Source: Fictibacillus halophilus (GTDB lineage Bacteria > Bacillota > Bacilli > Bacillales > Fictibacillaceae). From it: DNA of 64,000 nt. The notes under the pieces are model-generated. The model saw only the letters and a program-made list of their open reading frames with translations. It ran no database searches and had not been told where the DNA came from. How positions within the stretch are numbered: the first letter of the stretch is position 1; every line of letters begins with the position of its first letter. The stretch is from NCBI RefSeq assembly GCF_016401385.1, contig NZ_JAEACF010000001.1, positions 1 through 64,000 of the forward strand. Direction: 5' to 3'. Positions 36,706 through 40,966 of the stretch are shown piece by piece. The position numbers and the translations under genes are program-made.

Positions 36706-37206
36706 ATGTGCAGTTCTTACTTTATAGATAATATGCAAACCAATGATTGGCCACATGTAAGAAACATCTATTTAAAAGGTATTGCTACAGGTAATGCTAC
36801 CTTTCAGCAGGAAGCTCCTTCATGGAATGAATGGGATAACAGTCATTTATCATGTTGTCGTTTCATTGCTCGCTCTACGACTCAAGTATTGGGGTGGGCT
36901 GCTTTAAGTACGGTGTCTAGCAGATGTGTATATGCGGGAGTGGCTGAAGTAAGTATATACATAGATCCTGTTCATCAAGGGAAAGGGCTTGGAAGTTCTT
37001 TAATGAAGAACCTTATTGAAACCAGTGAGGAAAATGGGATTTGGACATTACAAGCAGGGATTTTTCCTGAAAATCAGTCGAGCATAGCTCTACATAAAAA
37101 GTGGGAATTTAGAGAAGTAGGTCTTAGAGAGAAAATTGGTGAGATGAACGGAGTGTGGCGTGACGTCATCTTGCTGGAACGAAGAAGTAAAAAAGTTGGA
37201 GTATAA
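36706..37206 (+). CDS. PAT/ArsN-like GNAT N-acetyltransferase
   Basis: A 166-residue GNAT enzyme of the phosphinothricin/arsinothricin acetyltransferase type. Seen are VSIYIDPVHQGKGLGSSLM (acetyl-CoA loop), LQAGIFPENQSSIALHKK and the ending IGEMNGVWRDVILLERRS, which is the signature C-terminus of PAT and ArsN1. The adjacent arsR2 and arsP favour an arsenic role (N-acetylation of arsinothricin), but bialaphos-type or other amine substrates are possible. Start is the ATG after GAAAGGAAG. Confidence 0.8.
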   Translation: MCSSYFIDNMQTNDWPHVRNIYLKGIATGNATFQQEAPSWNEWDNSHLSCCRFIARSTTQVLGWAALSTVSSRCVYAGVAEVSIYIDPVHQGKGLGSSLMKNLIETSEENGIWTLQAGIFPENQSSIALHKKWEFREVGLREKIGEMNGVWRDVILLERRSKKVGV

Positions 37207-37209
37207 AAA

Positions 37210-37225
37210 ATCAATTTTTTTTGAT
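37210..37225. promoter_or_regulatory. ArsR2 operator O1
   Basis: ATCAA-TTTTTT-TTGAT, just upstream of the arsR2 -35 box and 3 bases after the acetyltransferase stop. Confidence 0.75.
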
Positions 37226-37232
37226 TTATTAG

Positions 37233-37284
37233 TTGCGAATTAGTAAATAAAGGATATAATGAAATTACATCAAATAATTTTGAT
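37233..37284 (+). promoter_or_regulatory. arsR2 promoter and ArsR2 operator O2
   Basis: TTGCGA (37233-37238), 16 bases, TATAAT (37255-37260). The dyad ATCAA-ATAATT-TTGAT (37269-37284) lies in the early transcript region. It resembles the known Bacillus ars operator. Confidence 0.8.
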
Positions 37285-37300
37285 GTTAGGAGTGATACAA

Positions 37301-37636
37301 ATGAAAAAAGAAATTCCTTTATTAAATACCATAACTACAGCATCAAACCAAGATTTAGAGAAATATGAACAAAAGTTTAAAGCGCTCGCTGATCAGCAGC
37401 GACTGCAAATTATCAATATCCTGGCTGTTAAAGAAAGTGTATGTGTATGTGATCTCACGCCGATTATTGACATGCCGCAATCCAAGCTATCGTATCATCT
37501 AAAAATTCTGTTAGAAGCAGACTTAATAAAAAAGGAAAAACAAGGTACCTGGAACTATTATTCTTTGAATGTAAGTGAACTAAAAGGAATTTTATCAGAT
37601 CAATTATGCTGTGTGTTTTTACCATCATCTTGTTAA
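37301..37636 (+). CDS. arsR: ArsR repressor 2
   Basis: A 111-residue winged-helix repressor with metalloid site SVCVCDLTPII and recognition helix region MPQSKLSYHLKILLEADLI. The C-terminus is Cys-rich (DQLCCVFLPSSC). It diverges strongly from ArsR1 (ELCVCELVDIL...). Start is the ATG after AGGAGTGA. It is flanked by four ATCAA-N6-TTGAT sites, so it most likely controls itself and the downstream microprotein-arsP genes. Confidence 0.92.
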   Translation: MKKEIPLLNTITTASNQDLEKYEQKFKALADQQRLQIINILAVKESVCVCDLTPIIDMPQSKLSYHLKILLEADLIKKEKQGTWNYYSLNVSELKGILSDQLCCVFLPSSC

Positions 37637-37638
37637 AT

Positions 37639-37670
37639 GACGTACTACACTTGTAGTGCTTCATTTTTAC
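37639..37670 (+). terminator. terminator between arsR2 and microprotein 1
   Basis: Hairpin around ACTACA-CTT-GTAGT, with outer AATGA/TCATT pairs and TTTTTA after. It separates arsR2 from a second regulated promoter. Confidence 0.65.
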
Positions 37671-37677
37671 ATAAAAC

Positions 37678-37715
37678 ATCAATTTTTTTTGATGTATAAA
37701 TCAATTATTTTTGAT
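37678..37715. promoter_or_regulatory. ArsR2 operators O3 and O4 (tandem)
   Basis: ATCAA-TTTTTT-TTGAT (37678-37693) and ATCAA-TTATTT-TTGAT (37700-37715), centres 22 bp apart, about two helical turns. A TATAAA (37695-37700) between them may be the -10 box of a second promoter. Confidence 0.75.
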
Positions 37716-37735
37716 ATAACAGGAGGAAAATTTTT

Positions 37736-37900
37736 ATGAATATTTATTATCTGGAAAAGATGTTTGAAATGAAGAAAAGAGAAGTGGAGCAGTTTGCGAA
37801 AGAAAATAGCAGACCAAAACAAATAAAATCAAACACTTTTAGTAGATCACTCTTAAAAAAAAGGGAAACAACACAATCAAATCAAGTATGCTGCGCTTGA
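37736..37900 (+). CDS. 54-residue microprotein ending in Cys-Cys (arsenic cluster)
   Basis: A short basic, helical protein beginning MNIYYLEKMFEMKKREVEQF and ending SNQVCCA. Its only cysteines are the vicinal pair at the C-terminus. The ribosome site AGGAGGAAA lies at ideal spacing, with two ArsR2 operators directly upstream and arsP 21 bases downstream. No family recognised. A role as As(III)-binding carrier or accessory to ArsP is inferred from the Cys pair and context only. Confidence 0.7.
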   Translation: MNIYYLEKMFEMKKREVEQFAKENSRPKQIKSNTFSRSLLKKRETTQSNQVCCA

Positions 37901-37921
37901 TAAAAAGGGAGAAGAAATATT

Positions 37922-38788
37922 ATGTGGATGGATACCTTTCAAAGTTTTTTAAGTATAGCCATTGAACTTTCGATTCTGTTCGTAGTGATCTCGTTTGTTA
38001 TCAATTTACTTCAAGCTTATATCCCTTATGAAAAAGTTGAGAAATATTTGGGAGGAAAGAACAAAGGAATAGGAGCATTATTCGCATTACTCTTTGCTTT
38101 TGTAACACCTTTTTGTTCTTGCTCTACCATACCAGTTGTTGTGAACATGTTAAAAAAGAAAATGCCTTTTTCCATAGTGATGGTATTTCTTTTTTCCTCA
38201 CCCGTACTTGATCCGACGATCATCACTATTATGGGAGTGTTATTAGGGTGGAAAGTAACGATCCTCTACACCATCATCACAGCGGTATTTTCTGTGATCA
38301 TCGGTTTTGCACTTGAAGCATTAGGATTTGAGAAATCAGTAAAGAACGTCGTGATGTCAGGGTATCAAAAAGAAACGAAAAAGTTTGATGTGAAAGTTGC
38401 TCTTTTAGAAACAATGAATTTGATGAGGAGTGTTTATCCTTATCTTTTACTCGGAGCAGCTATTGGAGCTGTTATTCATGGATTGGTACCAACAAATTGG
38501 ATTGCAAGTACGTTTGGCAGCGATAACTGGTGGATCGTTCCGATAGCGGCGGTTGTAGGGATTCCTTTATACATCAGGCTATCGAGTATGATTCCGATCT
38601 CTCAAGTTCTGATCGCAAAAGGAATGGCGCTTGGCCCTGTGATGGCACTCATGATCTCATCAGCTGGTGCGAGCCTTCCAGAGGTTGTTCTCTTAAAGTC
38701 CATTTTTAAGAAAGAACTCGTCATTATGTTTGTCCTATCTGTGATTACCATGTCAACAATTTCTGGTTTTATTTTCTATCTTGTTTAA
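37922..38788 (+). CDS. arsP: ArsP-type permease (DUF318 / PF03773)
   Basis: A 288-residue membrane protein with about eight TM helices. The hallmark is FVTPFCSCSTIPVVVNMLKKK near residue 58-78; its paired Cys bind trivalent organoarsenicals in ArsP. A second half-repeat appears as GIPLYIRLSSMIPISQVLIAKG and SSAGASLPEVVLL. Known ArsP proteins export methylarsenite and roxarsone(III). Start ATG 14 bases after GGGAGAAG. Context with arsR2 and Cys-pair microproteins supports the role; other PF03773 permeases of unknown substrate exist. Confidence 0.85.
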   Translation: MWMDTFQSFLSIAIELSILFVVISFVINLLQAYIPYEKVEKYLGGKNKGIGALFALLFAFVTPFCSCSTIPVVVNMLKKKMPFSIVMVFLFSSPVLDPTIITIMGVLLGWKVTILYTIITAVFSVIIGFALEALGFEKSVKNVVMSGYQKETKKFDVKVALLETMNLMRSVYPYLLLGAAIGAVIHGLVPTNWIASTFGSDNWWIVPIAAVVGIPLYIRLSSMIPISQVLIAKGMALGPVMALMISSAGASLPEVVLLKSIFKKELVIMFVLSVITMSTISGFIFYLV

Positions 38789-38827
38789 GATCTTTCACAA
38801 AGCTTGAAAGGAAAGGAGGTGAGATTA

Positions 38828-38974
38828 ATGAGTTTCATAAAAATTTTCTTCGGAAACAAAAATGAAAAAGAAGCTAACTGCTGCAGCGTTCAAATTGTTG
38901 AAGTAAGTGATAGAGAAGAAACAGTATGTTGTGAAACAGAGAATAGTAAAGATCAAAACAAATGTTGCGTATAA
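38828..38974 (+). CDS. 48-residue microprotein with three Cys-Cys pairs
   Basis: A small acidic protein beginning MSFIKIFFGNKNEKEANCCS and ending DQNKCCV. CC pairs lie at residues 18-19, 34-35 and 46-47, spaced 16 and 12 apart, with almost no other hydrophobic content after residue 9. AAAGGAGGTGA precedes the ATG at ideal distance. It follows arsP by 39 bases and ends at a terminator. It looks like a thiol-rich metalloid-binding peptide; function not known. Confidence 0.75.
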   Translation: MSFIKIFFGNKNEKEANCCSVQIVEVSDREETVCCETENSKDQNKCCV

Positions 38975-39007
38975 ACCAAACTAATTAATCCCCATATATT
39001 CATCAAA

Positions 39008-39036
39008 AACATTCCTGCTACAGGGATGTTTTTTTA
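39008..39036 (+). terminator. terminator of the arsP operon
   Basis: Stem AACATTCCTG / CAGGGATGTT with CTA loop and seven T. Confidence 0.9.
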
Positions 39037-39103
39037 TGAATAAGAACATACATGACATACGTCTTAATAATAAAGTTTTGTTAGAAAGGATGTTTGCACG
39101 AAA

Positions 39104-39908
39104 GTGGAACTTTTTAAAAATGCTGTTCCAGTATTTCTAACGATTTGTATGATTGTATTGTTCGGAGCCTTACCTATCCTTATTGTGGGAACTGAGATCC
39201 ACTTTAGTGCTTATGTAATAGAAACGAAGAATCTGATTCTTAGCCTGATTCAACCATATGAAATCACCTATTTCATTACAAAACCAGAACGTCCGCTATT
39301 CCCAGAGATATTTAATCCTTACCTTTACAGCATGAGCATTTATTTCTTAGCTTTTTTCCTCTCCATTTTGCTTGGACTACTACTGAGTTTTGTCACGATA
39401 AACTTTTTTTCAAAGTCGGCAAAAAGGTTCATATCGTTTATTGTGTTTGTTTTAGAATCATTGCCTGATCTGTTTATCGTCGTCATGATACAAATGGGGG
39501 GTGGTTTGGTTCTTTAAGAAAACTGGAATTCTTGTAATGCCATTTACCTCTCTCCCTGATGAACGATCTTATTTCATTCCTATTATAGCGCTATCGATTC
39601 TACCTACTGTTCAATTTTTCAAAATGTTTATGCTTTCTTTAGAAGAAGAAGTACAAATGGATTATGTAGTTTTTGCAAGAGCAAAAGGTATGCCATTCAT
39701 CAAGATCCTTCCTTTCCATGTTTATCGAAACACATTGATGAGCATCTTTTATCAATCAAAATCGATTTTATGGATGATGCTTTCTAACCTTTTAGTACTG
39801 GAATATATCTTGAATATGAATGGATTTACTTCGTTTATTTTTACTTACTTGTCTCCTGAACTTTTTGTTGTAGGACTCATTATGCTACTTTTACCAACTT
39901 ATTTGTAA
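39104..39908 (+). pseudogene. peptide/nickel ABC transporter permease, frameshifted
   Basis: Two frames together make one DppB/OppB-type permease. The first (39104-39517) ends ...LESLPDLFIVVMIQMGGGLVL. The second (overlapping from 39501) continues with FFKKTGILVMPFTSLP and contains the EAA loop FARAKGMPFIKILPFHVYR. Removing one G from the six-G run at 39496-39501 restores a single frame. The C-terminus also looks cut (PTYL stop) where one extra T would restore FVIAYL. So one or two homopolymer indels, either real decay or assembly error. No ATPase or binding-protein gene is adjacent. Confidence 0.8.
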
Positions 39909-39964: not shown

Positions 39965-40966
39965 GTGAAAACATTTTTTGTGCGGAATTTTTATATCCTA
40001 TTAGGATCTAGCTTTATAGTTGGCGTTTTGTTAGCAAGTTGTATAAATGGTGTGTTCTTTGACGGGGAGATCAAACAGACGCAGGCTATATATGTAGATG
40101 CTTATCCTGTAGATAAAGCTCCCTTTGAACCGGCACATAGTTTCTGGCTTGGAACAGATACGAACGGCAGGCACTTGTTACATGTCATCATAGAAGGAGC
40201 AAAGTATACGATTGGTTTGGGTTTATTTATTGCGATCTTTAGAATGTTTTTCTCGTTTGTTTTAGGAACGATTTATGCGCTGTACCTGCAAAAATACCAA
40301 AGAGTTCTATCCGCATTAAGTAATGCATTTCAATATATTCCGGTTGTGTTATTGGCTTATTTTCTATTAAGTCCGGTCTTGAATCAAGCTTTTGAGGGTT
40401 TTCAGTATTCATTTGCAACTAGGGTATGGTATGAAATTATTTTGCTAGTGCTATTGGCTCTTCCAACAGTCTCTTTAGTAATCGGAAACGAAATCTCGAT
40501 TATTCTAAGAAAAGAATTTATCCAGAGTGCTAAAACACTTGGAGCAAGTTCTTTCTTCATCCTTCGAAAGCACGTCATCGTACATATATATCGTCGCTTG
40601 TTAATCATCTTCACTCAGCAAGTGATACAGGTCTTATTGATCTTAGCTCATTTAGGATTGTTCGAACTTTATCTTGGTGGAACCAAAATTGATTATAGCA
40701 TCATGAAAGCTGCTCCGATTACCACTACATATGAATGGTCAGGGCTAATTGGTGATTATTTTGATCTATTTATTGTATATCCGTGGATTCCACTTGTTCC
40801 AATCGGCGCTTTCACCTTAGCGATTCTCTCCTTGAATCTTATTGTAAAAGGTCTCGAAAAGAATATGGATCCTGAGCTAGCCCCTCAAACAAAGAGATTA
40901 AAGCAAACGGAAATCAAAGAGGGAAGACGTAAAGAGTTTAGTTTCCAGGTAGTCACACGAGATTAA
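39965..40966 (+). CDS. peptide/nickel ABC transporter permease (DppC/OppC-like)
   Basis: A 333-residue permease with an N-terminal helix (about 9-27), a short extracytoplasmic segment with FWLGTDTNGRHLLHVIIEG typical of OppC, about five further TM helices and the EAA loop QSAKTLGASSFFILRKHVI. GTG start with AGAGGTGGT. It is the partner of the frameshifted upstream permease; without ATPases nearby, it may depend on shared ATPases or be a relic. Confidence 0.85.
   Translation: MKTFFVRNFYILLGSSFIVGVLLASCINGVFFDGEIKQTQAIYVDAYPVDKAPFEPAHSFWLGTDTNGRHLLHVIIEGAKYTIGLGLFIAIFRMFFSFVLGTIYALYLQKYQRVLSALSNAFQYIPVVLLAYFLLSPVLNQAFEGFQYSFATRVWYEIILLVLLALPTVSLVIGNEISIILRKEFIQSAKTLGASSFFILRKHVIVHIYRRLLIIFTQQVIQVLLILAHLGLFELYLGGTKIDYSIMKAAPITTTYEWSGLIGDYFDLFIVYPWIPLVPIGAFTLAILSLNLIVKGLEKNMDPELAPQTKRLKQTEIKEGRRKEFSFQVVTRD

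Follow-up and report, generated by a model that had tools for sequence, protein, structure and literature searches.

A paired-cysteine peptide family, apparently undescribed, linked to ArsP permeases, and a cysteine-tailed peptide apparently under ArsR control, in Fictibacillus halophilus and other Bacillota

The window analysed here is the whole of a 64,000-nucleotide stretch of Fictibacillus halophilus DNA (contig NZ_JAEACF010000001.1, positions 1 to 64,000). It holds an arsR gene and, beyond a terminator-like hairpin, a second unit in which the permease gene arsP lies between two microprotein genes, one 5' of arsP encoding 54 residues (UP) and one 3' of it encoding 48 residues (DN). DN is, apparently, a real and hitherto undescribed family of ArsP partners, and UP is apparently an ArsR-controlled peptide with a cysteine tail. 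The original prediction, which was made from the letters of the window, described four dyads, arsR, the hairpin, and then UP-arsP-DN on the forward strand, and all of these are present where it placed them. UP (37736-37900), recognised as an open reading frame (ORF) and by profiles, substitution rates, and a structure model, has an N-terminal helix, a basic linker, and the end ..NQVCCA; arsP (37922-38788) encodes 288 residues and is identified by its Pfam profile; DN (38828-38974), recognised as an ORF and by profile, alignment, and substitution rates, contains three Cys-Cys (CC) pairs, the first within the core CCSVQIVE. In both window peptides every cysteine falls in such a pair, as had been claimed. 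UP and arsP are separated by 21 nucleotides, and arsP and DN by 39, the latter gap containing AAAGGAGGTGA; this word before DN and AGGAGG before UP bear out the prediction of excellent ribosome sites.

DN is linked to one clade of ArsP. We read 125 arsP loci from family and order samples (loci are numbered with an L, and genus labels such as g14 were given by hand); the census excludes two loci of ArsP paralogues from the window's own genome (L001, L002) and a duplicate (L003). An ArsP sharing about 38% identity or more with that of the window placed a locus in the clade (116 loci); the other nine, at 28-35%, were treated as divergent. With a profile that, like profiles A3 and A4, was trained on many of the same loci it counts, 104 of the 116 clade loci, spanning 45 of 48 genera, were seen to have DN no more than 1.5 kb from arsP, as against none of the nine divergent loci. 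Most copies (89) lie downstream on the same strand, 85 of them within 100 nucleotides (median gap, 28 nucleotides); 12 are divergent upstream, and three are upstream on the same strand. A control with reversed ORFs gave one DN match and no UP match. Less biased is a 12-row profile built from Fictibacillus DN and applied without regard to position, which found 61 places in 60 of 299 genomes of the order; 52 were close to arsP when coordinates were compared by eye, five more were DN-like genes elsewhere, and four (L174-L177) look like chance matches in or across other ORFs. Among named genomes, which overlap the census, 76 of 80 loci had DN by profile and one more (L260) by eye, and 43 had UP; in two of this set (L255 and L270), UP was present and DN was not found.

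The 104 DN are 27-61 residues long (median, 44), and 92 have a ribosome-site-like word 5' of the start. In 102 of the 104 the pattern CCx[VILFM]x[IVFLM]x[EQ] is found; it occurs 105 times in ORFs hit by the DN profile versus seven times in the rest of the 479,995 bp of locus sequence. When 67 DN are aligned, the first CC is invariant, and the I and E of the core CCxVxIxE are nearly so. Only 13 of 523 cysteines lie outside pairs, the number of pairs per peptide ranges from one to five, and 54 of the 104 end in CC or in CC plus one residue; from the first CC onward, the tail is acidic, with a median net charge of -4. The expectation that the CC pairs would be conserved therefore holds for the first pair but not for the second and third, since 23 of the 104 DN have a single pair.

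Beyond the order, a 67-row DN profile run against 398 genomes of the phylum gave 26 matches, 24 of them outside the order; this search was made from the DN side only. Twenty-two of the 24 have an ArsP-like gene at a distance of 1.5 kb or less, although some of these genes are fragmentary or only 31-34% identical; the other two lie beside arsM (L183) and near an LMWPc (arsC-like) gene (L189). Homologues near arsP in other genomes, on which the original prediction had staked itself, are thus found both within the clade and at a distance. Fusion to a DUF2703 or thioredoxin domain is seen in seven of the 24: in six (L186, L187, L188, L189, L192, and L195) DN forms the N-terminal part of a DUF2703 protein, and in L198 it is joined to a Thioredoxin_3 domain of the NCBIfam ArsE family. 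The L183 DN continues into a stretch without a Pfam match. Arsenite methyltransferase (arsM) genes adjoin DN in L182 and L183, and L182 has arsP as well. PadR-family regulators with a CC motif stand near arsP-DN outside the order (L188:23-391 and L191:911-1300).

Peptides of this size are easily missed, as the original prediction had remarked. Plasmids typed as mobilizable carry arsP-DN in Paenibacillus (pJ45TS6, L206) and Priestia megaterium (pN447-3.1, L207). The L206 cluster includes arsP, DN, ArsN1, and trxB, and DN has no listed gene there, PLSDB's table being incomplete; on another plasmid DN is "hypothetical", and L207 has, 3' of DN, a UP-like ORF for which no gene is listed. DN-like database proteins come from Priestia, Virgibacillus, Gracilibacillus, and the Bacillus cereus group; those from Staphylococcus epidermidis match weakly (E 0.05-0.07), and several of the records carry the name "alcohol dehydrogenase". 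L258 and L270 are Bacillaceae-like ars loci in records that bear the names Chryseobacterium sp. ISL-80 and Pseudomonas sp. ISL-84 and are probably mislabelled. No Pfam or NCBIfam model covers the 67 DN, and the DN and UP profiles matched no PDB chain. Two of the 67 DN matched Galaxin_repeat (best E 0.00039); these matches, scattered others, and one of UP to Biopterin_H (E 0.034) were set aside as composition. A search of open-licence literature found no description of such peptides, nor are they mentioned in the available portions of PMC12607644, PMC13188914, PMC6514093, PMC6205960, PMC11653729, PMC9213503, and PMC4435449.

Both peptides are encoded by real genes that are under purifying selection, although more weakly than arsP. 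Among 18 genomes of the genus (that of the window included), 16 have ArsP at E 1e-30, and all 16 loci have DN. UP keeps its CC in 14 and so its conservation within Fictibacillus is not complete: one locus has WC in place of CC (L009), and in another UP is frameshifted (L017). A frameshift near the end of the L014 DN removes its third CC pair. The median pairwise ratio of nonsynonymous to synonymous substitution rates (dN/dS) in Fictibacillus is 0.40 for UP, 0.30 for DN, and 0.10 for arsP; in genus g65 it is 0.16 for UP and 0.15 for DN. The fixed cysteines of both peptides are retained while their codons alternate between TGC and TGT. The dN/dS comparison, which had been proposed as a check, thus favours coding function for both. 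Neither gene is confined to Fictibacillus. Single-sequence protein searches returned two matches for DN and five for UP, the named ones being Fictibacillus and one "Bacillota bacterium", and the first UP profile (A2) reached 10 of 299 genomes, which alone would have implied a genus-specific UP; direct reading of loci and wider profiles found both peptides in other genera.

UP is the less constant companion of arsP, occurring in 46 of the 116 clade loci, every time with DN nearby. This count was reached from 48 position-based rows by subtracting ten (seven ArsR C-termini, one spurious ORF, and two DN) and adding L026 (seen by eye), L095 (a profile match), and six g4 loci in which UP adjoins DN; L009 and L017 were not counted, nor were L111 and L129, which are spurious ORFs near the 3' end of arsP. 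Forms with a Cys-rich end occur around arsP in 40 loci of 15 genera, and also in all six loci of genus g4, where a UP-DN unit stands behind dyads and is divergent from arsR-arsP. A leave-one-genus-out profile, which is less biased than the census profiles, recovered 31 of 39 UP at E 0.05 and missed eight. At 49-65 residues, UP is conserved mainly in its N-terminal helix (Y..E....K..E.E..A..AWK in many genera), and the tip may be CC, CCxxCC, or a CxC variant. A structure model places the helix at residues 3-24, with a mean predicted local distance difference test (pLDDT) score of at least 90 over the first 20 residues; the remainder is flexible.

A wider UP profile search found the peptide in 41 of 299 genomes, and all 18 loci away from arsP were read. 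Seven have dyads in front, and by eye all seven UP have at least two cysteines among the last 14 residues; the other 11 have no dyad, and four of these UP have at least two such cysteines. In one case (L304:629-1671) three UP copies in tandem, interspersed with dyads, stand behind arsR, no arsP being recognised in the 3.15 kb read. From these loci we read the UP helix as belonging to a wider Bacillales group whose Cys-tipped members seem to have been recruited to the ArsR regulon, whether arsP is present or not.

The four dyads that frame arsR and the second unit lie at 37210-37225, 37269-37284, 37678-37693, and 37700-37715 and are predicted ArsR-type operators, recognised by pattern. All four match ATCAA-N6-TTGAT perfectly, against 0.24 expected in the window, and none of 100 shuffles reached at least four; the 3.92-Mb genome has 18 such sites, versus six for the reversed pattern, and four of the 18 are at this locus. 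The arsR gene (37301-37636, forward strand) encodes an ArsR/SmtB repressor by the HTH_5 profile (50.6 bits; cut-off, 22) and the NF033788 metalloregulator subfamily profile (89.8 bits; cut-off, 55). Its earlier designation as ArsR2 is upheld as to family; the class of its cysteine site is not fixable from the protein, in which CVCDL and a C-terminal CC..C coexist. The hairpin that separates arsR from the second unit (37642-37659, forward strand) was found by consensus scan and folds with a z score of -4.9. Dyads are associated with this type of ArsR, and their operator role is predicted: they lie upstream of arsP in all 66 loci with a window-like ArsR, in none of the 37 with a MarR-type regulator, and in ten of the 13 with neither. 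Where UP precedes arsP, a dyad stands just 5' of UP in 38 of 39 loci; a dyad within 90 nucleotides of arsP itself was found in 33 of 75 loci without UP there versus one of 39 with it. The MarR-type regulator that takes the place of ArsR in 37 loci is a candidate arsenical sensor; one example (L123:956-1411) has a Cys pair close to each end (..NKNCCSIG.. and ..SSVCCKPLF).

The permease was named ArsP in the original prediction, and at the level of family the name holds: it scores 187.6 bits against PF03773 (cut-off, 32.3) and has the CSC motif as C65-S-C67 within TPFCSCST. It goes no further than family because the scores against the nearest NCBIfam equivalogs, SaoE (85.8 of 325 bits) and the SO_0444 Cu/Zn exporter (79.1 of 300), are far below cut-off. 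The ArsP of F. nanhaiensis DSM 23009 is given as 100% identical. According to the available text of PMC6205960, the ArsP of C. jejuni exports trivalent organoarsenicals, and two ArsP clusters may differ in function. In the ArsP group that Yang et al. (2015) call cluster 2, tPF precedes a C(S/T)C motif in a transmembrane domain, as described in the portion of PMC4435449 available, and the TPFCSCST of the window permease resembles this; the description there mentions no small partner, and the phrase "small protein" has no occurrence in the main text. HesB-like proteins, recognised by eye, lie near arsP in L051, L053, L178, and L255; those of L051, L053, and L255 end in CC, and that of L178 scores 20.3 bits against PF01521, below the 26.3 cut-off.

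Two known systems offer the closest ideas for what DN and UP might do, and neither peptide falls within the profiles of either. ArsD, the As(III) metallochaperone of the ArsAB pump, is likewise a small cytoplasmic pump partner with vicinal cysteines, and its job is the one proposed here. ArsD serves an ATPase pump, whereas DN and UP, at 27-61 and 49-65 residues, go with a permease. The accessible text of PMC12607644 names three vicinal Cys pairs in ArsD, with Cys12-Cys13 alone conserved in all. The ArsD profile matched neither UP nor DN at E 1 and none of the 67 DN at E 0.1, and in L178 a true ArsD (PF06953, 135.7 bits) shares the locus with DN but lies apart from it. SaoC and SaoE belong to one system, SAO, whose exporter SaoE is the nearest, if distant, equivalog of the window permease. 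SaoC is described in the available part of PMC13188914 as a "Cys-Cys-COOH" (seleno)protein, and the 54 DN with CC at or next to the C-terminus resemble it in this respect. None of the 67 DN matched a Sao model, SaoC included, at E 0.1; for UP, this check used the window copy only.

Vicinal thiols bind trivalent arsenicals well. In the explanation that we prefer, and to which as a whole we give about an even chance, a trivalent arsenical would free ArsR from the dyads and so open the second transcript, UP-arsP-DN. DN would be cytoplasmic and largely unstructured, would bind As(III) or methyl-As(III) through its first vicinal pair (CCxVxIxE), and may be kept near the membrane by its Lys-rich, weakly hydrophobic N-terminus; it would then bring the arsenical to ArsP, the CSC motif of which is a plausible acceptor. 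UP, with its helix, flexible basic linker, and thiol tip, may scavenge or ferry the same ligand, and in other genomes it would be part of the ArsR regulon with no ArsP alongside. Metalloid binding, the nature of the ligand, proximity to the membrane, and hand-over to ArsP are what we infer from sequence; neither window peptide has a recognisable membrane span (maximum Kyte-Doolittle means over 19 residues, -0.66 and 0.18). A role for DN as arsenical carrier or loader is the best reading because the first CC is fixed, because the gene is tied to one ArsP clade, and because its neighbours include ArsM, ArsN1a-like, and ArsR proteins, and DN is probably an overlooked arsenic-binding helper of the pump. 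The original prediction had supposed a carrier pair that feeds ArsP. This suits DN better than UP, because UP is in the minority at arsP loci and Cys-tailed UP are found behind dyads away from arsP, which speaks for UP as a more general scavenger or carrier.

Several observations weigh against this explanation. Twelve clade loci lack DN nearby, namely eight of genus g14 together with L096, L132, L142, and L159; in two g14 genomes that were checked, a UP-DN pair is found elsewhere (L169, L171), and the L142 genome has DN on another contig beside an ArsN1a-like gene (L172; 154.9 bits, cut-off 170). Five DN-like genes in the order lie away from arsP: those of L169 and L171 with UP and no other ars gene recognised, that of L170 with nothing recognised, that of L172, and that of L173, which is divergent from an arsR in a genome without ArsP at E 1e-40. 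DN is absent beside the divergent ArsP, which have the same CSC motif, and the structure model of DN has no fold and low confidence (pLDDT, 63.7). The occurrence of UP without ArsP is, of course, a further argument against a strictly ArsP-bound role for that peptide.

Some of these same loci would suit a simpler arrangement, in which UP and DN, once induced, soak up trivalent arsenicals on their vicinal thiols, so sparing the thiols of the cell, and hand nothing over to ArsP. UP lies behind ArsR-type dyads without a nearby arsP, including the three tandem copies of L304; UP-DN pairs are found off arsP in L169, L171, and L307; and the acidic DN tails offer one to five CC pairs. We nevertheless consider sequestration unlikely, as DN is tied to one ArsP clade and absent from all nine divergent loci, and a single CC pair, which is all that 23 of the 104 DN possess, is little for a sponge.

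Vicinal CC pairs make poor CxxC-type redox centres, and a role in which the dithiols of these peptides, fed by thioredoxin, reduce arsenicals or the CSC of the permease is distinctly improbable for that reason, despite the single fusion of DN to ArsE/Thioredoxin_3, the presence of trxB in the L206 plasmid cluster, and the six fusions to DUF2703, a thioredoxin-fold family according to the accessible text of PMC6514093. Less probable again is that "As" is a mere label and that the ligand of the cluster is Sb(III), Hg, Cu/Zn, or an organometal: the SaoE and Cu/Zn export equivalogs nearest to the permease would allow this, both far below cut-off, but control by ArsR and single-locus neighbours such as ArsM (L182, L183), the ArsN1a-like protein (the window, L172, and L206), and ArsD (L178) point to arsenic. 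That UP is a Cys-codon leader peptide, or that both ORFs are by-products of regulation, was rejected as very improbable: the terminal Cys codons of UP do stand just 5' of arsP, but there is no terminator-like fold between UP and arsP, the junction (37890-37930) folding no better than shuffles (z -0.2), selection acts at the protein level, the leave-one-genus-out profile regains 31 of 39 UP, and DN is downstream and elsewhere fused to domains.

The surroundings of the unit include, upstream, a GNAT acetyltransferase gene (36706-37206, forward strand) whose nearest NCBIfam model is ArsN1 family A (arsinothricin resistance), at 133.9 bits, below the cut-off of 170; an ArsN1a-like gene lies upstream in seven of 16 Fictibacillus loci when a 1.5-kb flank is considered. 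A promoter-like TTGCGA-16-TATAAT lies between dyads 1 and 2 (37233-37260, forward strand), found by a consensus scan that gave three matches in the region versus a shuffle mean of 9.0; the same scan listed no match for the second unit. A terminator-like hairpin follows DN (inner stem 39005-39033, forward strand; z -4.4 for 38965-39045) and is absent from the list of the terminator consensus scan, which also includes one match inside arsP. Farther downstream, two overlapping forward-strand ORFs (39104-39517 and 39501-39908) look like a single OppB/DppB-type ATP-binding cassette (ABC) permease broken into two parts, of which the second alone has a Pfam match; an OppC-like gene follows at 39965-40966.

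ArsP is described, in the available text of PMC6205960, as a permease that exports trivalent organoarsenicals, with no small partner mentioned. The presence of DN with 104 of 116 clade arsP loci, and its place near arsP in 22 of 24 distant matches, suggest that work on these permeases has omitted a partner. In the broadest form of the proposal, which we hold tentatively and regard as possible rather than likely, one clade of ArsP would, across Bacillota, have DN as a near-obligate soluble subunit that loads the CSC motif of the permease; ArsP would then be a two-component exporter, and UP would be a second thiol carrier belonging to the ArsR regulon. If that is true, an arsenical carrier peptide may be as short as 27 residues and defined by CCxVxIxE. 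DN opens to direct test a class of genes that no model covers, whose products are very short candidate metalloid carriers.

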